A stretch of 64,000 bases of DNA, taken from assembly GCF_032118995.1 (NCBI RefSeq), contig NC_092665.1:16574012-16638011 (forward strand), in the 5' to 3' direction. The notes beneath the pieces were generated by a model. That model ran no database searches. It was given only the letters and a program-made list of their open reading frames with translations, and had not been told where the DNA came from. This stretch comes from Asterias amurensis. Its lineage: Eukaryota; Echinodermata; Asteroidea; Forcipulatida; Asteriidae. This document shows positions 9,650 to 37,013 of the stretch, piece after piece; position 1 is the first letter of the stretch, and every line of letters starts with the position of its first letter. The position numbers were made by a program, and so were the translations under genes.

Positions 9650-9750
9650 CTGCGAACAAGTCAGCTAGCAGACGACACATCATTGACGCAGTCAAGCATG
9701 CGCAATGCATTGTGGGTGCTGCCAACTCTAATCACTTTTTCAAGATGGCG
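9650..9750 (+). promoter_or_regulatory. Likely TATA-less promoter with NRF-1-like and YY1-like motifs
   Basis: GCATGCGCA at 9696-9704 resembles the palindromic NRF-1 site. CAAGATGGCG at 9741-9750 matches the YY1 core and overlaps the start codon of the short first exon, an arrangement known for TATA-less promoters. No TATA box is seen. The motif matches are direct; promoter activity and start site are inferred from the position beside a credible first exon. Confidence 0.5.
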
Positions 9751-9792
9751 CTCCAGCCCGACAGAAGAGAGCTAGGATATGAACAGACCTTG
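9745..9792 (+). CDS. CLCN2-like: First coding exon of the ClC-2-like gene (short N-terminus)
   Basis: Sixteen codons, [16 protein letters not shown], then a gtaaat donor. The end YEQTL joined in phase 0 to MYGRY of the next exon at 14044 recreates the ClC-2 N-terminal signature (human ClC-2 has [22 protein letters not shown]). This match across a 4.25 kb intron is the reason for the assignment. The start ATG lies in a good context, inside a YY1-like motif. Confidence 0.85.
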
Positions 9793-15700: not shown

Positions 15701-18700
15701 AAATTTCAAACTATTTTGTCAGCGCTGTTACTGTATAAGATGACTGGTTATTTATTTATTTGTTTGTTTATTTAAAGTCTGCTTCAGTTCATCATAGATA
15801 TAATATACTTTCTTTTGTACTTTTATTTATATTTTGCTTGTACAGGATTGCGAGCATCATGCCTAAAGGACCTGAGAGCTCTTTGTAAGAGGCCGCTATT
15901 ATTATTATTGTTATTATTATTTATTTATTTATTTATTTATTTCTACCGATAGCTCAAGTACAACTCTACTTAGTCATGAAGGGGCAGCCAGTTTTACAGT
16001 ACTTGGCTTGGACTGGATTCCCAGTAGCTTTCATCATATTCTCAACGGGATTTGTCCACTTAGTGTCGCCAAATGCCATCGGTAAGAAGCCTCTCAACTT
16101 TCTTAACAAAAAGTCTTTGATTGCCTCTATGCCCCTGGTCATTGCCTTGGTGCCCTTGAAATGCTCCAGTAGAAATTTCCTCACACTCATAGGGTGCCAA
16201 TTACCAAGGAGAAAATGCCTTGCTGCCCTTGCCCTTTCAAAAAATGGACAGCATATAGACCTGTCCATATGTTTATACAAATATTTCCACTGTATCAGGG
16301 AATAATGTATGTTATACTCCATTGGAATCGGAAAAATTTGCATTAAATTATTCCCTTCCTCTAGCCATCAATGCTTTCTTTCTAGGGCAGGGCATTTACC
16401 GATGGTAAAGGGAGGCATGCCAGGTACACTGGGCGAACCCACTCTTTTAACAATAGGTGTGCAAGGGGGTCAATTTCACAAAACTCTTCCTAACCTAGGA
16501 CTAGTTCTAGGTAATGCTAAGAGATGGAACTAGTCAAAAGTTATATTAGTCTGATTAGTAAAAGAAAAAGACATTTTCTTAAATTCTTTCGACCTCATTA
16601 AAAACCTATTTTTATACTTGTTGCAAGCCTGGGTTTTCCTTGGAAGCAGAAGCTGTTCCGTGTGTGCTGGCCTTCACTATATTTTAAAGACTTTAAGAGT
16701 TGACAGTGGGCTTTGCAAAAGGTTTTTGCTCTCTCAAATATGAATTTCAATGCCCATTGTTGAAGATTCTGTAAATCTTTTTGAATAAGATTCAGAGGTT
16801 CTTATGCTCTTGCCTAATTAGGCCTAAGACTAATTTGTTTAGGATGTTGTACTTTGTTGTAAATTGCATCCATGTTCAATTATCATGCGATTATGTTGGC
16901 TCAGTGGTTTCTTTCTCTGGCGTACACTTCTGTGAACAGAATCCCACCTCGAACCAGAGACTTGATTGGATTTTCAATCCCCACCTAATTACAAGAGGCT
17001 TTTACGCTTAGGTTTTCCTCCCACATCTAATACTGAACATTCCTTCTCATAAGTTCCTATTCATCTGTTATTGCCGCTAATCGTGCTGTTGGATACTGTG
17101 TAAAATGTGATTTGCTTTGTGTATTTTAACAATTTTTGTGTAGATTTTTCACAATGATTTCATTTTGGAGTAGCGATATGATCGTGCTCTTTTGGAATAG
17201 CGCTATATAAGCACTGTTTATTGTTAATATTTATTTTTAAAAAAGAACAATGAAATAAATGATGAGATTTTTGTTGTGTTAATATTCAGGCTCTGGGATC
17301 CCTGAAATGAAAACTATTCTAAGAGGAGTCGTCCTTAAGGAGTATCTGTCATTTCGGACACTCGTCTCCAAGGTGGTTGGCGTGGCAACATCACTTGGGA
17401 GTGGACTTCCCATTGGGAAAGAGGTAAGAATATTTGAATCTCTTTGTCGTGTTAGTAGGTGGGGGGTGTAAGTGCGTGGGGAGGGGTTTAAGTGCAAGTG
17501 GGGGAGGGGTGGTTGAAGAAATGGACCTAAAGGGTCTGGGTACTTTTTGTAACACAAAACACAATGTCCACAGATTTACATTAAAATTATACAGTGTGAA
17601 GAGAATGAAAGAAGAAGCTTCCCTATAAAATAGGTGCTGTAGTTTTTGGAAAAATTAGTCATAGTTAAACAATGAGTAAAACAATTATTTTTGCAGAAAA
17701 TAGAAAACACTGAAATGTTTTTTTTTTTTTTTTTTTTTTTTTTTTGGGGGGGGGGGGTTGTAGTTATTGTATAATTAAGTTTATATAACTATTGAACAAT
17801 AGAAATACTGATTTGAAACATAAATCAGTTGTGTACCATTTTCATAAGCCAGTAAATATTCTCATAAGCCGACAAGAATCAAACTCAAATTTATGCTGGA
17901 CTTGTCTATCTAGCTCAAAATTAAACCTCTCACAAAATGAGTTCTCTCCAACCACTAATTTGTGGAATGGAATAAAAATATTCCCTTTTGTGTACACGGA
18001 AACCTTATTAAATCTGGCTTACACGGGGGCAGACAGTTCTCTGCGGAGTGAATTGTGTCCTTTGTTAAACACTATAGTTTGATCAACACAAAAAGTCAAT
18101 TATAGACAGACAGTTTGTTAAGCAGATTAACTAGCTAGCCTTTGACAGTATCCTGTGTTTATAAAACCAACACTAACAAAAGAGAAAGAGGAAGGACCCT
18201 TCTTCCTCTGATCAATGGGGGAAGACTTCTTGATTATTTTATAACTGTGTGGTTGTTCTGCAATTTATCTATTTAAGAATGCCTAGAAGTGCTTTGTGTT
18301 CACTTATGTAGTCCGCAGAATTCAGAGTGCTTCTTTCCACTTCAATCTGATTACTTATGTTCTATTATATAGTAATGTCGTACCTGGGTCAAAAATCTTC
18401 AGTGTAAGGCTAGATGGCAAGTAGTAATAATGATTATAATAGCAAAGTATAGCACAGGTACATGTACATCTGCCAAAATGTACTCAAGGCTCTACATTAA
18501 AGAGAAACATTCTAAGACATGGTCGTAGCAACTTATAAGGGTTTACAAGGTGTTATGGTGCACTTAGAAGACATTGCCAGCAACACCTGGCCAAACATCT
18601 TCTCTTGGTGGTGGTTACTCTACTCCAATTACACCCATGGCTTGACGCCCCCTCTAAAGAAGGAAGCAATAAATGTTAAGTGTAGAAAGACAGAAACACC

Positions 18701-21700
18701 AGAGCTCAAATCCAGTGCACTTGACCATTTTGCCACAGCATGCCACAGTTCGCAGATAAAGGACACACAGATATTGCAAATAAGTATTTGACAATCCCTT
18801 GTTTTTATGAAAGGCTCATGTGGCATGAAATAAGAAGTTAAATTGTTCCTAAAGCACACATGATATTATTCCTGCTTAAGTCTGTTTTCTGATTTTGTTT
18901 GCCCTTGGGAAAAGTCTTAAAGAATGTGATCATAGCCTGAAATAATCAATTAGACCCTGCATAATGTGTACATTAAGGTTAGTCTTTGTACTACACAATA
19001 CAATAGTCCGACCTTTTTCAAGGACTAAAAATATCCCATTAAGCAGTTTGCTCTTACAGGGTGAATTCAGAGAATATTTCTTCTTAACGGCTTATGTTGA
19101 AAGCTTTGCTTTCCGGCTTTTGCATGTTTAAATCAGTTTGACTGTAGCTAATAGTGCTGACCATGTCAGCTTACAATTTATAGTTCAACGTTTTCACCGG
19201 TAAACTTGGTGATCCGTCTTAAGCCTGTAAGAAGATATTTTCATCTTTAAGTGGGCTTATAAGCAGAAAACAGCTGCTGAGGGCTTAAATGAGCACTGTC
19301 ATTATGATCAAAGTGAGTTTGTTGCCAGATACTTAAAGGGCCACTGTCATTATGCTCAAAGTGAGTCTGTGGCCAGACATTAAATTACCAACTCTCAGCC
19401 AGTTACTTCACATGCTAGCACGTTAAAATGACGATACCCTTTAAAACTGTTGTTTGTGATGTGACGATTAACGCATGTTCATGTTCTATCATGACGACGG
19501 TGCCCCAAGTAGGAATAAGCTGCCTACAGGCTTATGTAGAAAACATCTGCTTGCAGGTTTTATAAAAGATGCCCGTGGTCCAAACTTCATAAACTCTGTC
19601 AGCATAAAAGCTTGCTAAGTACATACAAATCTGGTTTAACAGAAAACTGGTTACCAGCCAAAATTGCTTAAGGTTTACATTGTCGCAACTGGTACCTCAC
19701 TCATCTAAGCAGTATTATGTTCTTAAAGGAACACGTTGCCTTGGATCGGTCGAGTTGGTCTTTGAAAAGCGTTCTGTAACCGTTTGTTGTAAAATGTATA
19801 TGGTTAGAAAGATATTGTAAAAGTAGAATACAACGATCTACACAAATATGCCTCGAAATTGCATGGTTTTCTTTTTACCCTGTCGACTAACACGGTCGGC
19901 CATTTATGGGAGTCAAAATTTTGACTCCCATAAATGGCCGACCGTGATAGTTTGCGACGTAAAAGGAAAACCGTGCAGTTTCGAGTGATACTTGTGTGGA
20001 TCATTATATTCTACGTTTAAAACATCTTTCTAACTATATGCACTTCATAACAAACGGTTTCAAACGTTTTTAATAGACCAACTCGTCCGATCCAAGGCAA
20101 CGTGTTCCTTTAACCATGTTAACAGCTACCGGTATATTAAATTGGAGTCCGGTAGTCCAGGTACATTACATGTAAGTTTGGAAGTATGGAACTGTACAAT
20201 TACTGTAACTGGAACACAATGTAAATGAAACACGATGTATGTGACAAATAGATGACACTGTACGCGTAGGTGGCTTGGAGAAGTGAAAGATTTGAAGGTG
20301 TTGAAGTAATGACTCACTTGGGCCCAGATTCCATTTGTGCACAGTATAAATATTGAAGAAACAGGTCGCGCTGTGTTTACTCCAGGTGTTTTGTATCGTT
20401 TTATTTGCTATGCAAGTTTGTCCCAATCAAGGCTAAAAGCCACTTTTTGTAAGGGGCTACAAGGAGAACATATTTGAGATGAAAATAACTCGGGGAGCTG
20501 AACGGAATTGATATTCCTCTTAAAACATTTCAGATTGTAGGATGGAGGGAAACATGCACCAGGCAGGGAATTGAAAAGAGATGCAGTGGGTGAAATAAAG
20601 CTGTCAGAATGACTCTTTGTTGTAAATCTCAGCAAAGCAAGATTGTATGGTTTAGTTTTCTATCAGTGTCCTTGTGTTTATTGTCAGGTTAAGAAGTGGG
20701 TCTCGGTTTGCTCTGACGTTGTCCGATAATTTGTTTCTTTCTTGCCGAGTCCATTTGTGTTTATTGTCAGTGCTTGCTCTATCAACTTCTGTAAGAAATG
20801 AGTCTGTGTTTGCTCTGATGTTGTCCGATACTCTTTTTTATTTTATTTCAGGGTCCAAAGAAATGGGTCTAAGTTTGCTCTGACATTGTCCAGGGATTTG
20901 TCTTTTTATTTCACAGGGTCCGTTTGTGCATGTAACCAGTGGTGTAGAAGAAGAAATGGGTCTTTGTTTGCTCTGACATTTTCTGATAATTTGTTTTTTT
21001 CTTTCAGGGTCCATTTGTATATATTGTCAGTGCTCTATCAACTACTCTATAAGAAAAGGTTCTCTGTTTGCTCTGATGTTGTCCGATACTCTGTTTGTTT
21101 TTATTTCACAAGAGTCCATTTGTGTATATTGTCAGTAATCTATCAACCATTCTATAAGAAATGGGTCTCAGTTTGCTCTGACGTTTTCCGATACTCTCTT
21201 TTTTTCTTTCAGGGTCCATTTGTGCATATTGCCAGTATTGTATCAACCATTCTCAGCAAGCTTATTGTTACATTCAAAGGGATATTTGAGGTAAGACAGA
21301 TTTATATTCAAAAGACTGCACAAGTCTCACATAATTAAAACATTGACCTTATTTAAGCGAGCGAGATTTTGACCCGCTTCCCCACCGCAAATATTAACAA
21401 CCACCATCACAGAGATAGAACACTTAGTTGGTAGACCATTGTCACTTGAATCCAGAGTTTGCAGGTTTTAAATCTTGTTTGAGCTAATAATCCTTGTTTA
21501 CATAAAGGCAGTTATAGGTTGATATTCCAAACAAGAAAAGTTTCCAATCCTACAAACTAATTATGAAGTTTATATTTGATTAGAATGAATCCAGAAACAG
21601 TGAGATGCTAGCTGCAGCTTGCGCTGTGGGTGTCTCCTGTAACTTTGCTGCTCCTATCGGTGGGGTTCTCTTCAGTATTGAGGTCACCTCAACGTACTTT

Positions 21701-24700
21701 GCTGTAAGGAATTACTGGAGGGGATTCTTTGGAGCGGTGTGTGGGGCGTTCGTTTTTAGATTGCTTGCCGTTTGGAATAAGGAAGAAGGTATGGCTTCAA
21801 TGTCATAAAGCCTGTAATGTAAGCGAGGCACAATTTTAACTTGCTTAGCAGCAAAAAATGTTTGCTTAGCAAAAATAGGTTACTGGTCAGAACACACAGT
21901 TGCCATTGCTGTGACTAGTACCATGGTCATTTCTTGCTTAAAGACAGTGGACACTATTGGTAATTGTCAAAGACTAGTCTTCACAGTTGGTGTATCTAAA
22001 CATATGCATAAAATAACAGACCTGTGAAGTTGTGTGCTTTTTGATGCTTGATTTCGAGACCTCAAATTTTAAACTTGAGGTCTCGAAATCAAATTCGTGG
22101 AAAACTACTTCTTTCTCGAAAACTATGTCACTTCAGAGGGAGCTGTTTCTCACAATGTTTTATACCATCAACCTCTCTCCATTATTCGTAATCAAGAAAG
22201 GTTTTATGATGATAATTATTTTAAGTAATTACCAATAGTGTCCATCGCTTTAACTACAGCATGTACAGGGTGATAAGAAAACAAGCAAACCCACATTTGA
22301 CTTCAGTTTTTACCTACTTGAACAGCATATTTCGAACATTCAATTACATGCTATCAAAATGTTGATCTTTAAACATAAGTGACAGAAAAAATTATTGCAC
22401 ATTTTATTTTCGAGATATGGTAGTTTAAAAACTTCATATGGCACTTGTGTTTGTCAATGGATGACTTTATTCCATCCGCTTAACTGACCTCTGGAATAGT
22501 TGTAAACGTCGTTCATTAAAAACCAATTTTCAGGATTCTTTAGATCAGCCTTCATTAATTGTCATTGATTACAAAACATCCAGAAGGAAATTACTGTTTT
22601 GTTTCTATAGTTATAACAATGATGTATAAAGAAGTAAGCGGCCTGATCTGATTGAACTGATTTAAATTCTGATTGCAGAAACGATTACAGCGTTGTTCAA
22701 GACCACATTCAGAGTGGATTTTCCTTTTGACCCCCAAGAGTTGATTGCTTTTGCATTTATCGGGTGAGTGACATGAATGAAGTCCATGTGTGGGAGTCAG
22801 TGTAATTATTGACCTTAATACTATACGCTATGTAATCTAGTTTGTTATTGAATGAATGTTTGTGATTCCACCTGTTTTTCCATTAACAAACCAGACAAGG
22901 CGTTGCCCACCGGATGTCTTGTTATAAAAACAATTTATTTTCCAATTGATACAGCTGATAGAACCCCAAATCGTTCTTGGGATGTTATTACTTGAAATAT
23001 ATTAGCATACAAACTTACTTGGTCAGTTGGTAACGAGCAATAGAGAGCTGTTGATAAAACATTGTGGGAAATGACCTTCTCTGAAGTAATGAAGTTTTTT
23101 TATAAAGAGGTAATTTCTCAAACAAATATTTGAATGTGAGAAAGACTTCAGGCCTGAAGTGTTTTTTTCTTTCATTATTTTCTTTCAACTTCAGTGACCA
23201 ATTAAGCCCAATGTTAACAGGTTTGTTATTTTATGCATATGTTGGGATACACCAAGTGAGAAGACTGGTCTTTTACAATTACCAAAGGTGTCCAATGCCT
23301 TTAAGAGTTGGCTTGTATGATAGATGTATTTTTTGTATCGAGGTGGCCCTTTTAATCACTGTATACTCGGTACTTTCCCATGTCTTAGGGGAAATAAGAA
23401 AAGAATAGAGGCTTACATGGACCTTTTCCTAAAACTCAGCTGATATGCTAGTGCCCCAGCTTTTTCTTTGACATCAATTTTGGAGCAGTATTAATTGTAC
23501 ATGTTTTGTTTTCAACATAAAGCAAAGCTTGAAGCAACAGACAAAGCCCAAGGATTTTTTATAAAAAATCTCCATGTATTTTTTTATATTTTTTTATTTT
23601 CATTTATTGACATCCAACAGCGGAAAGCCGCCACTTACAGGAATCGTTAAAAACTATGTAAAAATATGTATCATGTATCTAAAGTATCTAATGTATCTTA
23701 GAAGAGTGTCTAGCACCACCCCCCCCCCTCCACCACCTTGATGTCAGAAGACAAACATTGTAAATAATACACACTTCCTTCATAGAGCTGTTCTGCTTCT
23801 CCTTGGAACTAATTACTTCTTGCCTGGTGCGTGTTTCCCTCCATCCCACAGTCTAGACTGAATATCAATTCCAACCTTAAGGTCCCCTTAGATATTTTCA
23901 TCAAAAGGATTTTATTTCTAGAGTGGCTTTTAGCCTTGTTTGGGGCAAAGTTGTATTAAAAAAATAAAAATTCATGACAACTTTATGTGTTTATTATTCG
24001 TGGTACATTTTTCATCTGCAGTATTGCTTGTGGTTTCGGTGGAGCTCTGTTCGTATTTCTACATCGACGGATTGTGGATTTTAACAGAACCCATAAGAGA
24101 ATCAGCACTTTCCTCGTTAAGAAGTGAGTCCAATTTACATGTATAGTCCATTTTAGATATATACAGAAATTGCCAGGTACTAGCAAGTCGGACCAGCTAG
24201 CTGATTTCATTTTATTTCATTATATTTGCCAGCAAACATGAAAAATCACATTAAAAGTTTGCACATCAAAGATTTACAAGAACAAGCAATACAATAGTTT
24301 TAAGAAGAATACAAATATGAAAAAACATTTAGCAAAGTACTGAGAAACCTGGCCTGGGCCCAATTTCATAGAGCTGCTTAAGCACGAAATTTTGCTTAAG
24401 CAAAAAATCCTTGCTTAGTAAAATCAGATTACCGGCCAAGACTCCACTCAATTGTTATGCTAAGTAAACAACAGCTAAATACCAGTCACAAGCAATGTAT
24501 ATGGCATGAAATTTTGGCCAGTAACATGTGTAAAATAAGCAAGCTATTTTCGTGCTTAAGCGAACTTTTTGCTTAAGCAGCTCTATGAAATTGGCCCCTG
24601 GTCGTGGGTAGATACATATACTGTAAGAAACAACCTCCAGTAGGGGTGGTACACAAAGCACTTGAAACAAAACAAAAGACAAGAACCTTCGCGGGGAAAG

Positions 24701-26593
24701 CCAATAGCCAATGGTTCCAGATAATATTAAATAACAAGACCAATCGGCTTATTGGTTGAGTCCACCAGCTGGTTCACTTGTCCATAATTCATAATAAATA
24801 AGGCTGCATTTTAAAATTGAACTAGTGTTGTATATGTGACCATTAAGAAGTTGTTAAGTGACTGTATTTAAGGCACGGGGAAACTGGATTTGCAGATCTC
24901 TTGAATGTTTTGTTGTCAGAGTCTGTAAAATTGGTGTACATATACACGCTCAATCAACCTGAGGAAAATACAGTTCTTAAACTCAACACAACTCTTCTTT
25001 ATTCATCAGCCTTCCTTTTTTCTTTTTCTTTTTACATTCATTCAACAACTTCTAAACTTGGCATCCTGTATCCCATCCGTCACATGAGGGCGCTATTACC
25101 ATTTTTCATGAACACAACAACTAGCCAGGCGGACCTCTTAGAGACAATTTTGACTGGTCTTTGGGTATTTTAAGTGCCACTTGGCAAACTCAGTGATCGC
25201 CACTGAGCATGCTTAGTGGTGGCCATCTGAGAGCTCAGTGGTCTCTAATGATTAAGACGTTTTCTCTAGTGTCTGCAAACAGACAGAATGAAATTAAAAG
25301 TTATGCAGAACTCATATTAGATTGAAACATGGCCAGCATAAGGTTGCTAACCAAACTACCATGGTCCAATTTCATAGAGCTGTTAAGCACAAAAATTTGC
25401 TTAGCATGAAATGTCTTGCTTGATAAAAACAGGACTACCAACCAAATTTCCATTTTTTGCATCTCGTTTGTTACTGGAAATCAGCTGTTGTTTGCTTATC
25501 CTGAAAATCGTGTGGAAATTTGGTTGATAATCCTGTTTTTATCAAGGAAGAAATTTCATGCTAAGGAAATTTTTGTGCTTAGCATCTCTATGAAATTGGG
25601 GCAATGTCACAAGTACAATTTGTCACTTGTAAATGTATGCTGTTTATTTCTGCTTAGCAGACAATTAGAAAGCACTGTTTTATCCATAAGCAGCTCTGTA
25701 AAATTGGGCCCAAGAGATGTTTTGATTCAATGCTGATAATGAACCGACCTGTAGAATGTCTCTTACATCTTTAAGATGTTCATCTTATCCTTCTCTTTCA
25801 GTCGTTTCTTGTATCCTCTGCTGGTGGCTTTCGTCATCTCTTCCATCACTTTCCCTCTTGGGCTTGGTCAATTCATGGCTGGAGAGGTAAGATGGTCAGC
25901 ACAACTTTCACTACAATTGACCCTGACCTATCCAAATCCTTTGACACCAAACATATGGTGTGTCATGGCCTAGCAGTTAAGAGCACTGGATTCAAGCTCT
26001 GGTGTTTGATTAGCAGAGTGTTGGTTTGAGTCCCGGTCATGACACTTGTGTCTTTAAGCAAGACACTTAACCATGATTGCTTCGTAAAGTTGGGGTAGTA
26101 GTGCTTTCTGCTCTACGAGCCAAGCTTCAGACGGATGATACCCAAGCCTATATCCATATGGACTACTACAGCCCCAGAAGTAGGAAGTAACGGCGTAAAG
26201 CCCTCACCTTTAAATGGCCGTCCGGCCTTGTGATAATGGTGATGTCTCCTTCAAAATATTTTTTAATGAGTGCAAAACTCAGAAGTGATATGTTTTGGTG
26301 TGACAACTAATAGTATGAAACTGTGTCTGATTGATTTAACAGCTAACACAGAAGCAGCAGATTGATGAGCTGTTTAGTAACACAACCCTTGGTACAGATC
26401 CAGCCAATGTGAATGAAGAAAATAAATACAAACCTTGGCATCGTCCTAACGTCTTCGTTACCTTAGGGGTCTTTATCGTCATGCAGGTAGAGTTTTAATT
26501 TTGTTTAATTATACAAATTTGTTTATATTATTTTTGCAAAACAATACAACAAACACTAACAAAATTACATACCAAGAAAAAACCCCAATAGGG

Positions 26594-26628
<35 letters not shown>

Positions 26629-29600
26629 GACTTGTAATGCGCACGTATCCACCCTGCTGGGTTTTTAAGGCGCAAAATAACGGACAGTCCTGTATACTGG
26701 TGTCTTGTATTAAAAAAGTCATTTTTACAAGCATTCCACTTCTTATCAAACTTTTTCAGGTTGTTGTCCAAAGCAATTTTTTTATCAGCATCAGTTCGGT
26801 CTTTCTTCTTCTACTTTCAAGCGCCTTGGTACTTTGGCGCTATATAAATCCAATTATTTGATCTGATCCACCCATCTTCCTTTTGATAGTTCTGGATGAC
26901 AGCTCTAGCTGTGACTTTACCAGTTCCTGCCGGTGTCTTCATTCCAGTCTTCACACTAGGAGCAGCATTTGGAAGACTGGTAGGAGAATGTATGGCTGCC
27001 TGGTTCCCACAAGGCATTCATACTTCAGAAGGAATTATCAATAAGGTCATTCCAGGTGGATACGCTGTCGTTGGTAAGTAAGCTCAGGTCATGTCTTAAG
27101 ACGTTAAGGTCAAGTCTCAAGACATTAAAGCCATTGGACACTTTCTGAACAGAACAAAAATTTGAAGTTCACAGATTTACAAATAACTTACAGGGTTTAC
27201 AGAAGGTAATGGTGAAAGACTTCCCTTGAAATATTATTCCATGAAATGCTTTACTTTCTGAGAAAACAATAAAACAATTATCCATTCTTGATATCGAGAA
27301 TAACAGATTTTTTTAAAACACATGTCATGACACGGTGAAACGTGCGGAAACAAGGGTGGGTTTTCCCGTATTTTCTCCCGACTCCGATGACCGATTGAGC
27401 CTAAATTTTCACAGGTTTGTTATTTTATATATAAATTGTGATACACAAAGTGTGGTTTTTGGACAATGCTGTTTGCTTTAAGGTTTAGTCTCAAAACATT
27501 AAAGGCACCGGCAAATTTAATAATTGTCAGAGACCAGTAATCTCACTTGGTGAGTAGAAAGCTGAGGTAAATACTCTTGTTTTGCTTTGTACATTTTTAG
27601 GAGCAGCAGCCTTGTCAGGAAGTGTAACTCACACCATATCAACTTCTGTCATAGTCTTTGAGCTGACTGGACAAATAACACACATCTTACCTGTCATGGT
27701 AAGTGACAACAGACAGAACACTGTCATTAGAAAGTGACTCTTTCAGTGGCTGCCTTTTTTGCCTTATAAACCTAAAATGCCTCCTTTTGTTTTGTTTTTT
27801 TACTTCTGATTTTTATTTTATTTTAAATATTGTTATTTTCGGAGAATGTACCTGTATGACCTTGGCACTGAAAGAGTTAAGAAAGTCTCTGGTAACAGTT
27901 CTAAAGTTGACAAAAGACTTAACTGTGTTGATTTTTTTCTATGAATGCAACTTGAACCGATGATGCTGTTTCTTGGTTAGGTTCCTCTATACAAATTTAA
28001 CCCCAAACCAAGGTTTTAACATTTTTTAATCTATGTTTTTGCTTACTCAGATGGCGATATTGATATCCAATGCTGTTGCTCAGTTATTACAACCATCTTT
28101 CTCAATCTTTGTTTTTGCTTACTCAGATGGCGGTATTGATATCCAATGCTATTGCTCAGTTATTACAACCATCTTTCTCAATCTTTGTTTTTGCTTACTC
28201 AGATGGCGGTATTGATTGCCAACGCTATTGCTCAGTTATTACAACCATCTTTCTCAATCTTTGTTTTTGCTTACTCAGATGGCGGTATTGATTGCCAACG
28301 CTATTGCTCAGTTATTACAACCATCTTTCTCAATCTTTGTTTTTGCTTACTCAGATGGCGGTATTGATTGCCAACGCTATTGCTCAGTTATTACAACCAT
28401 CTTTCTCAATCTTTGTTTTTGCTTACTCAGATGGCGGTATTGATAGCCAACGCTATTGCTCAGTTATTACAACCATCTTTCTCAATCTTTGTTTTTGCTT
28501 ACTCAGATGGCGGTATTGATAGCCAACGCTATTGCTCAGTTATTACAACCATCTTTCTCAATCTTTGTTTTTGCTTACTCAGATGGCGGTATTGATAGCC
28601 AACGCTATTGCTCAGTTATTACAACCATCTTTCTCAATCTTTGTTTTTGCTTACTCAGATGGCGGTATTGATAGCCAACGCTATTGCTCAGTTATTACAA
28701 CCATCTTTCTCAATCTTTGTTTTTGCTTACTCAGATGGCGGTATTGATTGCCAACGCTATTGCTCAGTTATTACAACCATCTTTCTCAATCTTTGTTTTT
28801 GCTTACTCAGATGGCGGTATTGATTGCCAACGCTATTGCTCAGTTATTACAACCATCTTTCTCAATCTTTGTTTTTGCTTACTCAGATGGCGGTATTGAT
28901 TGCCAACGCTATTGCTCAGTTATTACAACCATCTTTCTCAATCTTTGTTTTTGCTTACTCAGATGGCGGTATTGATTGCCAACGCTATTGCTCAGTTATT
29001 ACAACCATCTTTCTCAATCTTTGTTTTTGCTTACTCAGATGGCGGTATTGATTGCCAATGCTATTGCTCAGTTATTACAACCATCTTTCTATGATAGTAT
29101 AATCCAGATTAAGAAGCTACCATACTTACCTGATATCAGCCATGCTGGAGCCAAGTAAGTCCTTCATCTTAAATAGTAACAGTAGGCAATCCTTTCATGT
29201 AAACCAGACTATTTTGCACCTAAACCTGCTTTAATTGATTGACCCAGTTTGCCGATAGGGAGACCATATATATTGGGATAAGATGGCTCAGTTGGTAGAG
29301 TGCCGGTGTGTTAACCCGCAGGTAGCCGGTTCAAGTTAAGCTCTTCTCAAACCCAAGATCGTATATCCCTTTCTGGGGGATATGTTGATGACCTTATCTA
29401 TGAATGGCTAGAAGCAATACCATCAATTAATAATAGAAAGTTTGTTATCTATTACATTTCTGAATGATTATTGTTTCTTCATTATAGGACTTATGAGATT
29501 TTTGTTGAAGACATCATGGTACGATACGTGAAGTTTATCTCTTGGCTGTCGACCTACGGTGACTTGAAGGAACTCTTGGATACCTCTCCAAGACTTCAAT

Positions 29601-32600
29601 CCTTCCCCTTGGTAGACGCTCCAGGTAGGCCCTCCCCTCCCTCTCCCCTCCCCCTCCTATCCCCCTCCCATCCCCCTCCCATCCCCTCCCCCCCTCCCAT
29701 CCCCTCCCCCCCTCCCATCCCCCTCCCATCCCCTCCCCCCCCTCCCATCCCCTCCCCCCCTCCCATCCCCCTCCCATCCCCCAAGATGATATGTTGCCTG
29801 TTGGTGTGTGGATTGGATATTTTTACCCTCAGTATTTTCCTGAGTTCATACAGTATTACTGCAAGGTATGTGGGACTAGGTACGTATGAATTATGAGACC
29901 TACTCCTTTTACATAGCAGCATGTAATGGTTTACAAAATGCTGCGGCGCAATACACTGCTAATCAAACCAGAAACACCCGGGCAAACCCCTTCTCTTTTC
30001 AATAAGTGTACTTGTTTCTTTTACCTCATAGTTGATGGAGTTCTCATTCCTTTTTTCTTAATGTATATTTTTTCATTCATATAGAGTCAATGATACTACT
30101 GGGATCAGTACAGCGTAGTGAGTTAGAGTACATGTTAGAGAAGAAGATTGGTCTTGCAAGACGTCTTGTTGTAGTCCAAGAAAGGAAGAGAGCTCAAGGA
30201 GCTGCTGAGGTTCAACCAGGACCATCGGATCGATTCTCAGTCGTGTCATTCAATGCTAAGGTAAGTTAGAGGCATCTTCTAGGAGGTTAGAGCCGTCTGT
30301 CTCTTGAAAGATTGAGACATTAATGATGCTAGCTGGGTTAGTCTTGAGTAACTTTTAGGTCTCTGTTGGCCGGACGGTTGAATCCCCCCATGCTGTGGTT
30401 TGGGCATTGGCTTGGTGACCAGTCTTGTTTCTTTACCTTGTTCTTCCATTCTAAGTGCTATTGATCAATTGGCTGTTTTCAGAGCCAACACTCCCTCAAA
30501 AGAGAATAATTGCATGGTTGTACACGCAAGTTGACTATTATTTTGAGTTTGTTCTTGCAATATCTTAAATGAAAGCTTTTCAACTTTCCCACATCTATAA
30601 AACTACGTATTTTAATTTTATATGTAACTTTTTTTATGTCAAATCAGCCAGAATTCAGGTGTATGATTTTGACATAATCTGTTTCTTATCTTGCAGTCCG
30701 ATGATACCAACTCACAGGCAATCTCAATCAGGAACAGTGCTGACAATCGTAAGTTTTTGTACTTTGAGGTTCCATCAATTTTCACCAATATGTCAACAAC
30801 AAAAATTTTGAATTTATAAATTGCTGTTTTTCCTGCGAGGTTTGTATCAATTAAGAAGTGCAGGCATGGTATTCTTCCTACTTTGGTCTGATTTCAGATT
30901 TGTTTGGCCTTTGGATAAAATCAGAAAACTTGTGTACGTGTAGGTCCGCTCTTGTACTCAGTAAAATGTCTACTTGTTTCCAAAAACCAGATATCATGCC
31001 CAGAAGACTCGGTCTGTAACTTTTTTCCTGAATTTTGTTTGTTATTTTGTTTCAGCTTCTTCAGTCAGTCACAATAACTTAGAGGTAACTATAAACATCT
31101 GGAGTTTCATTATTTTGTTTTTTCTCGTATTGTCTCCTAGAAGTAAAACAGTTTCATTTTATTTCTTGATCACCTGGATGGGACTTTTACATGTTTCTCA
31201 CTTCAGTATCTAAACTGTGGTATAAATTGGTTCTTTTCCTCAAAATGTTATTTATGTATGGCTCCAAACATGGGTTCACATTTTGTTACAGAAACACAGA
31301 TTAACTCTTGCTGGTCTTGTAGTTTAACGAGTGAAACCGTTTTTATAGTTTTTTTGGTACAATATTGGTAAAACATCCTATTCACAGAACCTCAGACTTC
31401 CACAAAGCATGATACCTTCTAGGCTAGCATTGGGTGGACAGGTTTCTTCTGTACAGAATTATGCGTGAATGTCAAGCTTATTTTACAGGTTAGCATAGAA
31501 TTTTGCTTCTGTGCTTGGGCATTCCATGTTTACATAGGCATTCTTCGCTTACACAGCTTGTGCAGAAATTCAGCTCTTACCCTGTAAGCGAAGAATGATG
31601 ATTGCAAGCGCAGAATTTGGCAGTAAGGAGAGCCATGAAATGAAGCTGTTTATCTATGATTGGAGTCATACATTCAACCAGTTTTCATTCTTTATGGTTT
31701 TAATCTCCTTGGTGTTATTCATTTACATTTCCTTGGTGCTAATTTGAAACTATTTTTCCCATCTTTTCTTTTCCTCTCTGTTGAATGTTGGATGATAATT
31801 GTTAACTTATTTGTTATAACTAACGTGTTTTATACTTCTGTTGAATACAATTCCCTGATAACCTTTTTACTTCTTACTTAATATCAATATCTTATCCTGG
31901 TATTTCTATAATTTTTCTTACTAAATGATTAATTGGTTTTCACGGTACCTCTCATTCACATATGTAAATTCACTTTACCTACTTACTTATTAATTGGTTT
32001 TCCCGGTACTTTCCCATTTGTATGTTATTCACTTTTCCTGCTAACTTAAATTGACTTTCCCGGTACTTCCCTGAAATCCCATATAAATATATATATGTTA
32101 ATTCACTTTTCCTGCTAACTTATTAATTGGTTCCCGGTACTTGCCATTTGTTATTCACTTTTTCCTACTAACTTATGAATTGGTTTTCCTGGTTCTTCCT
32201 TGTTATCCCTGTATGTGATCATTTCCTTTGTTTTCCTTGTCTTTTCCATGTGCTGTATTTCACTCCTTGTGGGAATGCAACTTCCTGCGTATTCCCCCAC
32301 TCCTTCATTCCTTCATTCCATCGTAGCTTTCCCTTCAAGTCCTGCTTAGGAATTCCCCCCGCTCTACTCCTCGCTCTTCTCCTCGTTCTTCCCCAAGGAG
32401 TTCCTTCTCTGTGACTGGCAAGGTAGGGCAAAGACTTCTCAAAGAAGAAAAATCATGAATGAAGATCAGGGATGAGATTGTTCAGACTTTTGGCTGAATT
32501 CAGACTTTTTATGTCGGCATGGTAAAGAAAATCAGACATTATTTTTTTCCACAAATAAAGAAATCCTGCACATTGGTCTACTTCTCTAGTGCTTTTGATA

Positions 32601-35600
32601 CTGTTTCCAAAAGCTCCTTGGAATCTATAACCCCAGGGGTAACCAAAATGTAGAAATGCCATCATTTCAACATTAAACTTTGAATTTGTATCCAAGTTTC
32701 AGACTTTTTTGTTAGTAATGACGCTGGGGCACAGAAGAAATAAAAAGTCATTTATGGTAGGCCTCACGAATCAAGTGGGCTTTCAGAAGTTTTCCCTTGA
32801 CAGTGGTTTGCTGGCCAAATGCAAGTCGGAACTTGAGCAAGTGAAAATGCTGGCGGACTATTAAAATGACAAGCTATAAACTGGTCCCGCTGACCAGTCC
32901 TTGACAAAGAATTTCTTCTGCTAAAGATTTGTTTTTGTTCCCTCGCATGGTGTTATCCCTTTGCATGGTGTTAATGTGTGTCTGATTGCGTACTGTTAAA
33001 TGAACTTTCTGTGAAATCATGTTTATTCCAAGTTTCACTAATTCACTCTGCTTTCTGCTTCACTTAATTTGGTCAGAGTTTTTCCCACAAAAATGTGTGC
33101 CTTAATACTTAATTGTAAAATTAATGTTTGCTGTTTATCTGTGTGTAAAATTATGGCCGCTTATCTGTGTTGTTGTGCAATTGTGTTTTGCTTGAATGAA
33201 TGTGAAATGATGACCCCCATCTGGAGTTGAGCAATTTAAATCTTCCGTTGACTTATCTTGTTGATTTTGAATAATGAATGCAGGCTATAAGTTATTGGAA
33301 TGATTTGTTCTTCAAAAACAACTGTTTTGTGAATTTTCAGCTCTTTGTAAAATAACAAATGAGAAGAACTAATGATTCACACCTTCCCCTACTGGCATTG
33401 GATATTCACTCTAACCATCAATGTATCGATCAAATAACAATCAAAAGTTGAATGCAATGAGGGGTTCTAACCCTAGACCAGTTCTGTGTGATTTTTCAAA
33501 CATGTCCATAAACATACTTGTCCTGAACACAAAATCATGCAGTGGCTTTTAGCTTCAACTGATAGAAACACTTAAATTAGAACACCATTTAGCGTGACCC
33601 TTCACCATGTTCACACTGTATGCCGTGCCTCACTGTTTTGTTACAATGTCTATTTTGCTCGCCCCACCACCTAAGGGAATGTTAAAAGTATTTGGCTCCA
33701 GAGACAGCGTTCTGAGCTCTAGTAACGACTCCATGGATGGTACCACACGGAAACCTAAGGTTTATAAACTGGTAAGTTAACCCAGACGCACCTGCTACAG
33801 GTTGCGAACCATTATAGCCTAGAAGCATAGAGTGGCTTATTCACCCATCGACATGATATGAGATTTTACTGATTTCAAGATTTTTTCAAAACTCCTTGAG
33901 CCTCAAAGTGTACGTGAAAGGTGTAAAGTAGTCACCAAATGGGGGTAAGAAATAGTCCACATTGTGTCCAAACCTGTAGTTGTGTATTTCTGATGGTCCA
34001 TCAACCTCCTGAATTGTAACATCTGGGAGGATTCTGGCCTCCCTTAAGGGGGGCCAAGACCCATCTTAAGGAACTTTCATCCACATCTAATCTCATCCCT
34101 GCCCTTTGAAGAGCAAGAATCATAGATGTAGCTGTAGATGAAGTAACTTTAGTTCTGCCTTCAGAAATCACACTCAAAACAATTGAAAAAGTTGACAAAT
34201 TAAAAAGTAAAGTTTGAAAGCAGCTAAATTAGATTAGAGTGACAAGATGGTGATTGTGAAATCACCTTCATAATCCCGACGGTGGTTGAGATCATTCGAT
34301 GATAGATGATCTCAATCCAACTCGGGGACAATAAGATTCAGACAAACTTCACAGTTCCAATTCTGAAGACATTTTATGATAACATTTTTACACTGATAGA
34401 TCTAACAGAGCTAACACTCTTTGTGTCTGTAACATTTTAGCAAATGCTGCATCACACTTAATAACCACTCGGCATGGTTTTTATTTGGTTGTATTAACAA
34501 TCTTATCGATGTTGGCTGCAGTGTTTTTATTTTGGCATGATGAATGAAGCATTTAATGTCACATTAGAACTTATCCTTGTGTTTTTCACCACTCTTCCCA
34601 ATCTGTCGAGTTAATGTCTCTAATTTTCTCATAATAATAACTTCCTTGCCTTTTGTCCTATTTCCTCTATGGATATAATACGACCATATATTATGTGTTT
34701 TAATTTGTATTTTGTATCCCAAAAGCCTTTAGATTGTTAGTTTCGACACTTTTGCCTCCGACGAAGTAGAGAAGAAATGCTACATAACATTAGTTATAAA
34801 TGAATTAACACCAGTGCTATCATCAATAACAATAATCACAAAACTGTTTTTTATTAAGTATTGAATTGTCTCCATAGAAAAAAATAACTTGCTCTTCCGG
34901 TTTTTGTAGAACTATTACTTGTGATATATTTTTTATTATTGTACATGTGTATATTATTGTTGGCATATTGTGGATTTGTGCTCTTTATGATTTGTCATTG
35001 TTACTATTATTATTATGATTTTTTACAGCCGATTGGTGAGTTTGAAGACATGACAGGAGAAGAGGTACACACTACTATTACTCGATTTTACTTTTTATTC
35101 AGACTGTTTGGGAGGTTGGGGGTTGATGGGGGTTGTGAAAGAACCTTGTATGATCTGATTTACGCTTGAGTTATTACGCTTACCATTTGAGCAGTAGAGG
35201 TGAAGTTTGATGAAACTGATGATCTGTTTTAATCTTCACAGCTTGAAGAGTGGGAGACAGAAGAGTTGAAGCCTCAATTGGATTTCAGTGAAGTTCATAT
35301 CGACCCGGCTCCTTTCCAACTTGTTGAGAGAACATCTCTCCATAAGGTAAGTCATGAAGACCCCTCTATATTCCGACAACTCTATATTGGGACACGCCTA
35401 TATTTTGACATCGCTATACCCTGACATCTCTTGTTTCCGACACCCCTTTGTTCTGAGACCCCTGTGTTCCGACAACCATATATTCAGTATACATAACTCT
35501 AAGTTCCCAAAACCCCATGTCATTTATTTACTTAAATGTTTTTGATTCGGAAAACATTGATATATACTTGTTATATATTCTGTAATTACATTTGTTGTTT

Positions 35601-37013
35601 ATTATTTATGTGTACAAAGCAAAGATTTTATATGCTTTAACATTTTTTCTTCTTGACTGTGATTTTTACATTGTTTTGGTTCACCGTAACACGACATTCT
35701 GTCAATTTTTTATTTTATGGTATATATTTGATTGTGAGCTTTTTAAATGCGTTCTTGTTACAGCTTTTATTGTTTGATGGTGTTTTTGCATATTTCTTGC
35801 CTGTAAGGCTTTGATATCTATTCTGCTTATTTTTTTTACTGGTGTACTTTTCTTAAACTGTCTACTACATGTATGTAATTTTCTTAATCTTATGCCATTT
35901 TTACTTTTATGCGCCATTTTTACTTTCATGGTCCTGGAGAGCGCGCAATATAAAATCAATTAGTTTAATTTTCTGTCCCCCCAAAAAAACAATTGTGCCC
36001 CCCGCCCCCCCCTTCCATCTGATCAACTGTGTACAAACTTGTTGTGATAGCGCCCTCTATTGAATCAAGCTTCTTCAGCCCATGTTATGTTCCCCATGAA
36101 AGAGACAAATTTCCCTGGCACACCCCTCAATGGGACTGGGGGTGTCTGCTTTTTAACAATTTTGTTAGTGTTATTTTATACTACATCTGTATATTTAGGT
36201 AGTACATTTTTTAATATTAACAATGTAGGGTTGTATTGTAAATATAAGTGTTTTGATGTAATTTTTAATTATTTTTTATCTTTATGTAGTTTTTAAGTTA
36301 ATGGGATTTTCGTTTTTGAAATGTACTTTTGAATAATCCTCAACTATCTAGTTTTGTATATTTCTGGACTTTTTGATTACTGAAGCCTTGCCTATTATTA
36401 CCTTGCCTTGTTATTATTCTTAGATAAGTAGCTGTAACATGTACCCCTATTGTGATATTTAACAATGTACTATTGTTCTTTCCTTTTGTTAGTGTCACTC
36501 CATGTTCTCATTACTTGGTTTGAACCACACCTATGTTACAACTCTTGGACGATTAGTTGGAGTGGTGTCTTTGAAAGAGGTAAGACACCTTTGCATTGTA
36601 CAATTGATTCCTTGCCCGATGATAGCATCGTGTGCCCAGATGAAAGCCTATACGCCATCTTCCAGGGGCTCCAAGTGTTGTTGGTCACAGTAACAGAAGG
36701 TCTTGAGCAAATGGCTCCTGACAAGAACAAATGGCTTTACTGTTGCATTTTTATTGATACATTTAACGCCCCCCTAAAAATAAAAAGAAAAAGAAAAAAT
36801 AAGAAAAAAAAAGGTTTGGTGTTTTCAAGTATAATATCTTAAGAAGTAGTACATGTATAAGACTTTGTTGAAGATTGATGATTGTTGGGTTCTTTCTACC
36901 AGATCCGGAGAGCCATTGAGAGGACAGCTCAGAATAACCGTAACTCCTTCCGGCAAAGTAGCAGCCCTCCACCGCTGCAGAATACCATCCATGGAGAAAA
37001 CTCAACAAGTTGA
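9745..37013 (+). CDS. CLCN2-like: ClC-2-type voltage-gated chloride channel, 23 coding exons
   Basis: A plasma-membrane ClC channel protein, most similar to vertebrate ClC-2. Coding exons: 9745-9792, 14044-14182, 14839-14970, 15953-16081, 17290-17423, 21213-21290, 21584-21788, 22679-22763, 24022-24123, 25802-25886, 26343-26486, 26890-27073, 27601-27698, 29039-29154, 29488-29624, 30085-30260, 30697-30748, 31056-31084, 33676-33771, 35029-35064, 35242-35346, 36493-36579, 36903-37013. All have AG/GT borders, phases join, and the sum is 2508 nt (835 aa; human ClC-2 is ~898). Selectivity motifs are GSGIP (residues 150-154), GKEGP with gating Glu194, GVFIP (442-446) and Tyr539. The proton-glutamate position of ClC exchangers is Val254, so a channel is predicted rather than a Cl-/H+ exchanger. 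Two CBS domains follow (about 565-630 and 757-805). Three exons are flanked by partial tandem copies of themselves. Short exons 17-20 in the CBS linker are less conserved and less certain. Confidence 0.93.
10020..10394. repeat. HP-2 palindromic MITE, diverged copy
   Basis: The right half (cagtttctcacaa ... gagtaattaccaa ... gtgtccagtgccctttaa) clearly matches the HP-2 family. The left half is more decayed. Confidence 0.6.
10559..10941. repeat. HP-2 palindromic MITE, full-length copy
   Basis: Begins tgacagtggacactattgg and ends accaatagtgtccactgcct, its reverse complement. It has a central hairpin around 10,745 (gagacctcaaattc / cttgaggtctcaaa). Confidence 0.85.
10990..11350. repeat. HP-2 palindromic MITE, diverged copy in reverse orientation
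   Basis: Shares gttagcataaaaacatactg, aatcattgtgagaaacggct and the ending gacaattaccaaaggttgtt with the family. It lies about 50 bp from the previous copy. Confidence 0.75.
13417..14182 (+). CDS. Alternative 5' exon giving a long ClC N-terminus
   Basis: An open frame starting at ATG 13417 (context atcATGG, in-frame TGA at 13378) runs 209 codons and continues without interruption into [17 protein letters not shown] and the donor at 14183. It could be an alternative first coding exon producing a 1028-aa channel, while the acceptor aatccacag at 14035-14043 gives the canonical short form. The extra segment is basic and rich in His, Lys and Ser, has no signal peptide or membrane segment, and shows no domain I recognise. 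Alternative N-termini are known for ClC-2-type channels. A chance ORF of this length in AT-rich DNA is unlikely but not excluded. Confidence 0.6.
14909..15245 (+). repeat. 175-bp tandem duplication across the exon 3 / intron 3 boundary
   Basis: Copy 1 starts inside exon 3 (gggtataatcatggcc at 14909), passes the true donor at 14971 and continues to about 15,090. Copy 2 repeats this from about 15,096: ggaataatcatggcg..., a second gtaag donor at 15146, then gagtcattaacagcc and cattcaggg matching the intron. The relic exon end (15096-15145) encodes a degraded form of [20 protein letters not shown], has lost a few bases and has no acceptor. It is a dead partial exon copy. Use of its donor would add 175 nt and shift the frame. 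Confidence 0.8.
15345..15530. repeat. Dispersed repeat, copy 1
   Basis: Shares tttggtgccctggaaatgct, agaaaatgccttggtgccct and atgcagcatacagccctgac with the copy at 16,109-16,265 just after exon 4. The two copies sit in adjacent introns in the same direction. Non-coding; family not recognised. Confidence 0.7.
15901..15944. repeat. TTA/TTTA simple repeat next to the exon 4 acceptor
   Basis: A run of atta and attt units ends about 8 bp before the AG at 15951-15952 and supplies the only T-rich tract of that 3' splice site. Confidence 0.8.
16109..16265. repeat. Dispersed repeat, copy 2
   Basis: Second copy of the element at 15,345-15,530: cattgccttggtgcccttga, ccaaggagaaaatgccttgc and ggacagcatatagacctgtc. 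It begins about 28 bp after the exon 4 donor. Confidence 0.7.
16876..17228 (+). repeat. SINE-like element
   Basis: Begins with a degenerate tRNA-like head (tgttggctcagtggtttctt) and contains ttttcctcccacatctaata. It ends with the tail tagcgctatataagcactgt followed by a T-rich end. This arrangement resembles SINEs common in marine deuterostomes. The assignment is by pattern only. Confidence 0.5.
17290..17423 (+). CDS. CLCN2-like: ClC exon 5 with the GSGIP and GKE selectivity motifs
   Basis: Encodes [20 protein letters not shown] and ends with SGLPIGKE. The next exon (21213) opens with GPFVHI, so the key GKEGP motif with the gating glutamate is split by a 3.8 kb intron. Near-identical to ClC-2 in this part. 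Confidence 0.95.
17718..17757 (+). repeat. T28-G12 homopolymer junction
   Basis: 28 T residues are followed directly by 12 G residues within intron 5. A similar T12-G13 junction occurs at 40,271-40,295. Confidence 0.9.
17760..19285. other. Intron 5 interior, no feature recognised
   Basis: No credible exon or named repeat seen. Confidence 0.5.
19290..19385. repeat. 49-bp tandem duplication
   Basis: The sequence cactgtcattatgatcaaagtg...ccaga is repeated once with a few changes. Confidence 0.75.
19727..20109. mobile_element. TTAA hairpin MITE (HP-1), intact copy, 383 bp
   Basis: Flanked on both sides by TTAA (19723-19726 and 20110-20113). The two arms are nearly perfect reverse complements around a centre at about 19,918 (gggagtcaaaattttgactccc). 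Termini are aggaacacgttgcc / ggcaacgtgttcct. It is non-coding and probably mobilised by a piggyBac-like transposase (inferred from TTAA). Confidence 0.88.
20667..21290 (+). repeat. Degenerate tandem array of the exon 6 start and its splice site (7 units incl. the true exon)
   Basis: Unit starts at about 20667, 20748, 20852, 20917, 21008, 21113 and the real exon 6 at 21213. Full units are ~100-105 bp and some are internally deleted. A unit holds the first ~45 nt of the exon (ggtccatttgtgtatattgt...tcaaccattct), then a stretch with tttgctctgacgttgtccga, then a pyrimidine tract and AG. Several units keep a good acceptor (tttcag at 20851 and 21007). None has a donor, so they are partial exon copies that cannot replace exon 6. 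Confidence 0.85.
21213..21290 (+). CDS. CLCN2-like: ClC exon 6 (GPFVHI half of the gating motif)
   Basis: Twenty-six codons starting [16 protein letters not shown] and ending GIFE, followed by gtaaga. It continues in phase 0 from GKE in exon 5 and into [16 protein letters not shown] in exon 7 (21584). This is the only complete member of the upstream tandem array. Confidence 0.95.
21584..21788 (+). CDS. CLCN2-like: ClC exon 7, channel-type IEV motif
   Basis: Encodes the pore segment with [20 protein letters not shown]. In ClC Cl-/H+ exchangers the residue after this first Glu is the proton glutamate (EE); here it is Val, as in ClC-1/2/Ka channels. This supports passive chloride conduction. 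Confidence 0.93.
21938..22252. repeat. HP-2 palindromic MITE, internally deleted
   Basis: Family ends are present (gacagtggacactattggta and accaatagtgtcca). About 70 bp of the left arm is missing. Confidence 0.8.
22975..23304. repeat. HP-2 palindromic MITE, diverged copy
   Basis: Matches the family from attagcatacaaacttacttgg to caattaccaaaggtgtccaa. The left end is decayed. Confidence 0.65.
24355..24598. repeat. Palindromic MITE, family HP-3, copy 1
   Basis: Ends gggcccaatttcatagagctgc and its inverse gcagctctatgaaattggcc, with gcttaagca motifs in both arms. Further copies at about 25,362-25,711 and 39,094-39,270. Confidence 0.8.
25362..25711. repeat. HP-3 palindromic MITE, copy 2
   Basis: Starts tccaatttcatagagctgtt and ends agcagctctgtaaaattggg. 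A second internal right end near 25,598 suggests a tandem or nested copy. Confidence 0.7.
25960..26245 (+). repeat. tRNA-derived SINE
   Basis: The tRNA-like head has an A-box region (tggcctagcagttaagagca) and a B-box (ggtttgagtccc). It is followed by the motif tctttaagcaagacacttaacc, a sequence widely shared by animal SINEs, and a body ending near gtgatgtctcc. Located in intron 10. Confidence 0.75.
26595..26860. repeat. AAT microsatellite followed by a SINE-like fragment
   Basis: An (aat)n run is followed by gcgcacgtatccaccctgct and, about 200 bp on, the tail-like ctttggcgctatataaat. It probably derives from a repeat with an integrated microsatellite. The family is not certain. Confidence 0.45.
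26890..27073 (+). CDS. CLCN2-like: ClC exon 12 with the GVFIP motif
   Basis: Encodes [20 protein letters not shown], the third selectivity-filter motif (G-x-F-x-P), then [17 protein letters not shown] as in ClC-2. Confidence 0.95.
27124..27482. repeat. HP-2-related palindromic element, diverged
   Basis: Shares gaccgattgagcctaaattttcacaggtttgttatttta and the start/end cattggacact / ggacaatgctg with HP-2, but the arms differ more. Confidence 0.55.
28021..29090 (+). repeat. 76-bp tandem array of the exon 14 start and its 3' splice site (14 units)
   Basis: Units start at 28051 and then every 76 bp exactly (28127, 28203 ... 28963), ending with the true exon at 29039. Each unit holds the first ~52 nt of exon 14 (atggcggtattgattgccaa...caaccatctttct) and ~24 nt of intron end (tttgtttttgcttactcag). 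There are thus 13 decoy acceptors all but identical to the real one. Unit variants are ordered: gatatcc in units 1-2, gattgcc in 3-5, gatagcc in 6-9, gattgcc in 10-14. 76 is not a multiple of 3, and translation from any decoy stops within about two units. No donor lies inside the array. Confidence 0.97.
29039..29154 (+). CDS. CLCN2-like: ClC exon 14 (true copy at the end of the 76-bp array)
   Basis: Encodes [20 protein letters not shown] then [18 protein letters not shown]; ClC-2 has [32 protein letters not shown]. It contains the conserved Tyr539 that lines the chloride site. Only this unit continues past the repeated 52 nt into the rest of the exon and a gtaagt donor. Confidence 0.95.
29278..29400 (+). 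repeat. tRNA-derived SINE fragment
   Basis: gatggctcagttggtagagt (A-box type) and ggtagccggttcaagtta (B-box type) lie 40 bp apart, followed by unrelated body sequence. Not a credible tRNA gene, since the acceptor stem does not pair. Confidence 0.6.
29488..29624 (+). CDS. CLCN2-like: ClC exon 15, start of the first CBS domain
   Basis: Encodes [20 protein letters not shown] and onward to FPLVDAP; the domain continues in exon 16 (30085) with [15 protein letters not shown]. This matches CBS1 of ClC-2 (VEDIMVRDVPHV ... [13 protein letters not shown]). The donor gtaggc is followed at once by a C-rich tract. Confidence 0.92.
29629..29781 (+). repeat. C-rich pyrimidine minisatellite (cccatccc units)
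   Basis: About 150 bp almost free of G, built from ccccctcccat and cccctcccccc units. It begins 4-5 nt after the exon 15 donor. The minus strand has many G-runs of 3 or more and could form G-quadruplexes. Confidence 0.9.
31895..32235. repeat. Degenerate tandem repeat in intron 18
   Basis: About five units with ttattaattggttttcccgg, tacttcccatttg and ttattcacttttcctgctaa; unit length 60-85 bp. Confidence 0.7.
32240..33670. other. Intron 18, gene-free
   Basis: No feature recognised in 32,240-33,670. Confidence 0.4.
33780..35020. other. Intron 19, gene-free
   Basis: No exon or named element recognised. The AT content rises towards the exon 20 acceptor. Confidence 0.5.
36040..36140. repeat. 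Dispersed repeat containing gatagcgccctct, copy 1
   Basis: Shares tgatagcgccctct...gaatca and ttcagcc...tatgtt with copies near 55,880 and 63,178. Confidence 0.6.
36493..37013 (+). CDS. CLCN2-like: ClC exons 22-23: end of the second CBS domain and C-terminus
   Basis: Exon 22 (36493-36579) encodes [20 protein letters not shown] and LVGVVSLKE; exon 23 (36903-37013) begins IRRAIERT and ends at TGA. This matches CBS2 of ClC-2 ([33 protein letters not shown]). The C-tail after the domain is short, about 28 residues. Confidence 0.92.

Follow-up and report, generated by a model that had tools for sequence, protein, structure and literature searches.

The window analysed here comprises 64,000 nucleotides of the genome of Asterias amurensis; it has a G+C content of 38% and is eukaryotic in character, with spliced genes. 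Its central feature is a plus-strand gene with 23 modelled coding exons, whose coordinates are listed in Table 1 together with those of the features discussed below. The gene was modelled by eye, guided by homology, reading frame and GT-AG borders. In the joined frame of exons 1-18, residues 7-669 align with human ClC-2 (8ta3) with an E value of 6.9e-240, and ClC-1 and ClC-K rank below ClC-2 as matches to the modelled protein. Based on this similarity, we designate the host gene as a CLC-2-type chloride channel. Exons 19-23 lie outside the part matched by ClC-2 and were modelled from reading frame and GT-AG borders only; the acceptor of exon 19 is the weakest of the gene, with a score of −7.32 in the acceptor matrix described below. 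GT-AG borders are present at all 22 modelled introns, which range from 177 to 4251 nt, and the exons range from 29 to 205 nt. A search of the genome_contigs collection with the modelled protein returned 17 candidate stretches, none of which was confirmed as a relative, and a literature search on echinoderm ClC-2 gave no paper on the subject among the matches listed. Two further observations were made within the gene. An open frame of 257 codons (13417-14190) runs in frame into exon 2 and is a candidate alternative first exon that would give a longer N-terminus. A C-rich tandem array of CCCTCC (29630-29782) starts 6 nt past the end of exon 15 and is a second repeat touching a splice-site region.

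Table 1. Positions of the channel gene, its exon copies and the tandem arrays in the window
Feature	Position	Strand	Description
CLC-2-type chloride channel gene	9745..37013	+	23 modelled coding exons, 835 residues, 0 internal stops
Degenerate copy of exon 3 end	15096..15158	+	GTAAGA donor; 72% identity over 74 columns, E 5.7e-7
Older array	20667..21212	+	relic d0 (exon-type start 20667) and d1-d5 (20750, 20852, 20917, 21008, 21113)
True exon 6	21213..21290	+	78 nt; last unit of the older array
Exon 13	27601..27698	+	donor at 27699, joined to one of 14 acceptors
Intron 13	27699..29038	+	1340 nt; 352 nt with 13 units subtracted
Array of 14 head-to-tail 76-bp units	28028..29091	+	straddles the intron 13/exon 14 boundary; start of unit k = 28028+76(k-1)
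Unit 1	28028..28103	+	most divergent; alone preceded by the original intron
Unit 13 (decoy)	28940..29015	+	exon would start at 28963, 192 nt; sole decoy within the gene's exon-length range
True exon 14	29039..29154	+	116 nt, continues unit 14; 38 residues and part of the next codon

The array at the intron 13/exon 14 boundary is highly regular. Each unit joins 23 nt of intron type (a pyrimidine tract and AG) to 53 nt of exon type, which in unit k begin at 28051+76(k-1), and all 13 successive spacings are exactly 76 bp. Tandem Repeats Finder (TRF) reports 14.0 copies with 99% matches, 0% indels and a score of 2028, well outside what chance would give. On the plus strand the core CTTACTCAG is present 14 times, always within the array, and on the minus strand it is absent; no exact match to it was found in viral_contigs. 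The units share 70-76 of their 76 positions in pairwise comparisons and fall into five sequence types, with seven identical units, four identical units, and units 1, 2 and 14 each on their own. These types form ordered blocks along the array: unit 1, unit 2, units 3-5 and 10-13 (alike), units 6-9 (alike), and unit 14. The initial annotation had described fourteen exact 76-bp copies beginning at 28021. The number and the exact period stand, whereas the copies are inexact, being of five types, and the array begins 7 nt further downstream, at 28028. Its description of the last unit as the only whole exon agrees with our model, because unit 14 alone runs on to the donor at 29154, where exon 14 is followed by gtaagtcc. 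The exon lies within the membrane part of a protein of CLC-2 type, as expected from its description as a pore exon of a channel, and the blocks of unit variants make the proposed recent unequal exchange plausible. Short identical units are hard to assemble, and the copy number might have been inflated or collapsed by the assembler. A wrong count would, however, leave the array in place, and the five unit types in ordered blocks, the divergent left edge and the distinct last unit look like a real history; we consider an assembly artefact highly improbable.

The units diverge from the exon at codon 18 of exon 14, which encodes Tyr in the true exon and Ser in the decoys. In the alignment with human ClC-2 its counterpart is also a Tyr, and we take it to be the conserved pore tyrosine of the CLC family. 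Two signs of selection were sought and neither was accepted. Within the first 17 exon codons five sites vary, all of them synonymously or conservatively, a weak result with a chance of 0.034 in a test that used transition weighting and omitted unit position 76 (in the Ser/Tyr codon, at the edge of the true unit). Among arrays with a period of at least 45 bp, with low-complexity arrays left out, two of four lie on acceptors (P 0.11 over the window and 0.30 within the gene span). This non-significant placement gives no ground for selection of acceptor-overlapping arrays; it favours chance and argues against any special mechanism.

The nearest known relative in kind is the VNTR in intron 18 of ABCA7, which is likewise a minisatellite overlapping a splice site of a coding gene, with the site copied in each unit (PMC5954066). 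It is reported to comprise about 12 to about 427 units, and use of the site of another unit leads to a frameshift and a stop (PMC5954066). The ABCA7 units described there are intronic, 25 bp long, and repeat the donor (PMC5954066), whereas the present 76-bp units repeat the acceptor with 53 nt of exon and omit the branch point. The unit is constant in this one sequence (14 x 76 bp, 0% indels), and the tract and AG of exon 14 are present in 14/14 units. As judged from these letters, the array can be classified as a splice-site-overlapping minisatellite in which the acceptor and exon start are repeated instead of the donor. Among the matches listed in a search of open-licence papers, none described a tandem array of an acceptor together with the start of its exon.

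Several other arrangements of tandem splice signals resemble the array in part. The beta-globin constructs with duplicated splice sites from the 1980s contained identical tandem sites competing for one partner; here, the tandem sites are natural, 14-fold and in an intact gene. In Dscam-type tandem exon arrays, copies of exon sequence are also lined up in one intron and are used in a mutually exclusive manner, but the present copies hold only the first 53 nt and are donorless. The best GT in the repeat (13 copies) scores −1.55, compared with 9.8 for the true donor. The unit is thus an incomplete exon, and both mutually exclusive exons and a hidden donor turning each young-array unit into a mini-exon were rejected. 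NAGNAG acceptors are likewise alternative acceptors of one exon, but they are 3 nt apart, share a tract and a branch point, and are chosen in the second step of splicing, whereas the units here are spaced by 76 nt and each has its own tract; this class was rejected because of the spacing. In intron gain by tandem genomic duplication, splice signals are also duplicated, and the duplicated segment supplies both the donor and the acceptor of a new intron. Here the donorless unit creates no new intron and the existing intron 13 is lengthened. Recursive splicing, which uses AG/GT, does not apply to a junction that reads AG/ATGG.

A detained intron of the OGT type shares with the array the presence of non-productive splice signals in an intron. 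Decoy exons of this kind trigger a partial assembly of the spliceosome that does not lead to splicing, and they retain introns (PMC12017769). By analogy, U2 and U2AF parked on the 13 decoy acceptors might slow the removal of intron 13, whose retention leads to a stop after 12 codons. However, the OGT-type decoys are described there as cassette exons with both an acceptor and a donor (PMC12017769), and the 76-bp unit has no donor. We therefore rejected the decoy-exon class of intron detention, and a slow intron 13 of this origin is very unlikely.

Use of any decoy would be damaging to the message. As the initial annotation had supposed, 13/13 decoys introduce an early stop, whose index is 575 in decoys 1-12 and 564 in decoy 13. 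The stops precede the end of exon 14 by 60-939 nt (60 nt for decoy 13), with further introns downstream. The NMD distance limit is 50-55 nt from the exon end. The decoy exons would be 268-1104 nt long for decoys 1-12, and skipping of the 116-nt exon 14 shifts the frame. Because decoy use, skipping and retention all break the frame, the junction between exon 13 and 29039 is the only frame-keeping outcome among these.

The strength of the acceptors was compared using a matrix trained on the other acceptors of the same gene. The score is 5.62 for unit 1 and 6.65 for every one of units 2-14, close to the leave-one-out median of 6.42 for the 22 acceptors of the gene. The matrix alone is non-specific, because 145 of the 3522 AG sites on the plus strand score at least 6.65. 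Units 2-14 share one 23-mer comprising the tract and AG. Decoy 13 and the true acceptor are identical over 289 nt upstream and differ at only two of the 53 exon positions (+21 and +53). Since decoy 13 is nearly the same as the true site locally, the choice between them must rest on more distant sequence; the separating information sits beyond the first 53 nt that follow the AG, in the remainder of exon 14 and at its donor.

The branch-point region distinguishes unit 1 from all the others. The duplicated piece begins inside the tract, and the ancestral branch-point region is absent from units 2-14. Two perfect yTnAy motifs are present upstream of unit 1, TTAAC (A at −32) and TTAAT (A at −22), whereas no perfect motif was found between −18 and −45 upstream of units 2-14, the true acceptor included; three 4-of-5 matches lie within reach in these units. 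A perfect motif accompanies 17 of the 22 modelled acceptors, and four acceptors of the gene besides that of exon 14 lack one. Because the motif also occurs in 51% of random intron windows, the branch-motif difference is a pointer and no proof. The near-identity of the acceptors reported by the initial annotation consequently holds for units 2-14, which score alike, but not for unit 1, which alone keeps consensus branch motifs. Taken at face value, the motifs could make decoy 1 the strongest acceptor via the original branch point, and transcripts would then mostly use it or stay unspliced, leaving an allele that is largely non-functional or sustained by an intact second allele. We give little credence to this possibility: branch motifs are degenerate, as the 4-of-5 matches illustrate, the exon of decoy 1 would be 1104 nt long, and the 835-residue frame is free of stops with GT-AG borders throughout.

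The AG-free zone upstream of units 1, 13 and 14 is 38-43 nt (43 nt for the true acceptor), with 29 AGs in the interval from the first to the true acceptor. AG scanning begins at the branch point and follows a first-AG rule (PMC1431707). By this rule, the 29 intervening AGs prevent a branch point upstream of the array from serving the true exon, so that the true acceptor is expected to rely on an adenosine within sequence derived from the exon, either 38-45 nt or about 23 nt upstream. The expectation of the initial annotation that simple scanning would favour an upstream AG finds no support in that form, because scanning starts at the branch point (PMC1431707) and the AG-free zones are short; recognition of the branch point and tract is the more likely stage of the decision.

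A hairpin in each unit might also be thought to bury the AG, masking the decoys or driving the amplification, or both. RNA folds pair AG/AUGG with CCAUCU, and their stability climbs from −8.1 in unit 1 through −12.2 (unit 2), −13.3 (unit 6) and −15.5 (unit 3) to −15.9 in unit 14. Among 4000 random variants of unit 1 with five changes each, 28 reach a fold as stable as that of unit 3, and the RNA fold of unit 14 has a z of −2.65. On the other hand, unit 1 has a z of −0.21, the unit as single-stranded DNA is ordinary (z −0.49 to −0.84 for five unit folds), and the fold test was picked after the folds had been seen. The true acceptor has the same hairpin, which therefore cannot discriminate decoys from the true site; masking was rejected on this ground, and we find the hairpin proposal as a whole barely plausible.

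The reading that we favour, with moderate confidence, is that of a young, tolerated minisatellite in which the gene's long introns and exon definition select the last acceptor and leakage goes mainly to decoy 13. The array would have arisen when a 76-bp piece containing the tract, the AG and the first 53 nt of exon 14, but excluding the branch-point region, was duplicated head to tail, and would then have been amplified to 14 copies, probably by unequal exchange. The long introns would place the gene in exon-definition mode, in which an acceptor occupied by U2AF and U2 has to find a partner donor on the far side of the exon, the sole one being that at 29154. The last acceptor would win because it gives the shortest exon (116 nt, compared with 192-1104 nt from the decoys). 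Leakage would be mostly into decoy 13, giving an mRNA with an early stop, and the array would chiefly be a tolerated load and not a designed switch.

One study of acceptor choice in transcriptome data bears on this proposal from two sides (PMC9225289). There, proximity across the exon favours an acceptor more in exon-definition than in intron-definition contexts, and the choice between well-separated acceptors is made at first recognition (PMC9225289). For acceptors at least 20 nt apart, however, an overall upstream preference is described there, which long introns on both sides reduce but do not reverse (PMC9225289). The branch motifs also count against exon definition, as the true acceptor lacks a perfect yTnAy and the two at unit 1 favour decoy 1. 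In addition, the 192-nt exon of decoy 13 falls within the 29-205 nt range of the gene, so that exon length alone cannot exclude it. The intron and exon lengths of the gene make exon definition the natural reading, in favour of 29039, and it excludes decoys 1-12 better than decoy 13. Exon definition remains the best available mechanism, but the point made by the initial annotation, a short exon in the last unit only, does not suffice in view of decoy 13.

To look for other exon copies, all 23 modelled exons with 60-nt flanks were searched against the window. Three exons have partial copies, namely exon 14, whose copies form the array, exon 6 and, for its end, exon 3; the remaining matches contain no exon letters. 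In the array before exon 6, d1-d5 and the true unit are mutually 76-89% identical. Relative to the true acceptor (10.0), d2 (11.0), d3 (12.7) and d4 (14.2) score higher, and d0 (7.25), d1 (1.57) and d5 (7.39) score lower, with weakened AG contexts in d1 and d5 (CAAG in the latter). A perfect CTGAY (CTGAC or CTGAT) is located 32-37 nt upstream in all five of d1-d5, the copies tested, and the branch motif lies within the unit, unlike in the young array. All six of d0-d5 lead to stops that precede the end of exon 6 by 133-561 nt. An invariant 11-nt run at the branch motif has a P of 0.009 over 64 intronic columns; this run was chosen post hoc, and the value becomes 0.029 and 0.13 without the indel-prone tract, and we did not accept a conserved branch block. 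The d1/d2 junction reads TCT/GTAAGAA and is donor-like by its letters. Because these decoys are strong and diverged while the reading frame is intact, strong decoys upstream of an essential exon appear to have been carried for long. The array before exon 6 and the donor-side relic behind exon 3 suggest that such decoys have long been tolerated in this gene.

The same features could be read as regulated or copy-number-tuned unproductive splicing, in which the decoys send a share of transcripts to NMD and the length of the array determines channel output. Every decoy of both arrays (13/13 and 6/6) gives a stop, in the young array with introns downstream, CTGAY is kept in d1-d5, and longer alleles of the human ABCA7 donor VNTR shift splicing and lower expression (PMC5954066). 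However, stops are the default result of out-of-frame reading of such units, the invariant branch run is weak, the AG contexts of d1 and d5 have decayed, and the stop of decoy 13 is near the distance limit for NMD. We regard this reading as unlikely. A bolder version, to which we assign a still smaller chance, is a heritable rheostat built of repeated poison-acceptor ladders before membrane exons: with more units, intron 13 would grow (from 352 to 1340 nt), its recognition would shift to exon definition and the fraction of transcripts lost to decay would be fixed accordingly, and the exon 6 ladder would be a previous round with the motifs of d1-d5 kept.

Splice-site choice is usually studied with duplicated sites built in the laboratory. 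The present locus may offer a natural contest for one exon among as many as 14 acceptors that share a 23-nt core and have nearly the same surroundings, graded only by their distance to the donor (116 to 1104 nt), in which one competitor alone kept the old branch motifs. The use of the array could gauge how strongly cross-exon distance decides and whether a branch motif can outweigh distance. At the acceptor of exon 14, the original branch region has been replaced by exon-derived sequence while the reading frame of the gene was kept, and the presence of a young and an old array in one gene suggests that decoys have been carried over evolutionary time.

Outside the channel gene, an open frame of 260 codons (4289-5071) resembles by eye the tail of a non-LTR reverse transcriptase, with no Pfam family at E 0.001. 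On the minus strand, three class C GPCR genes lie in a row (41562-61853), with ANF_receptor and 7tm_3 matches in three long ORFs. Smaller ORFs at 41562-42236, 50111-50557 and 58686-59261 are mutually similar and may be the last parts of these three genes.
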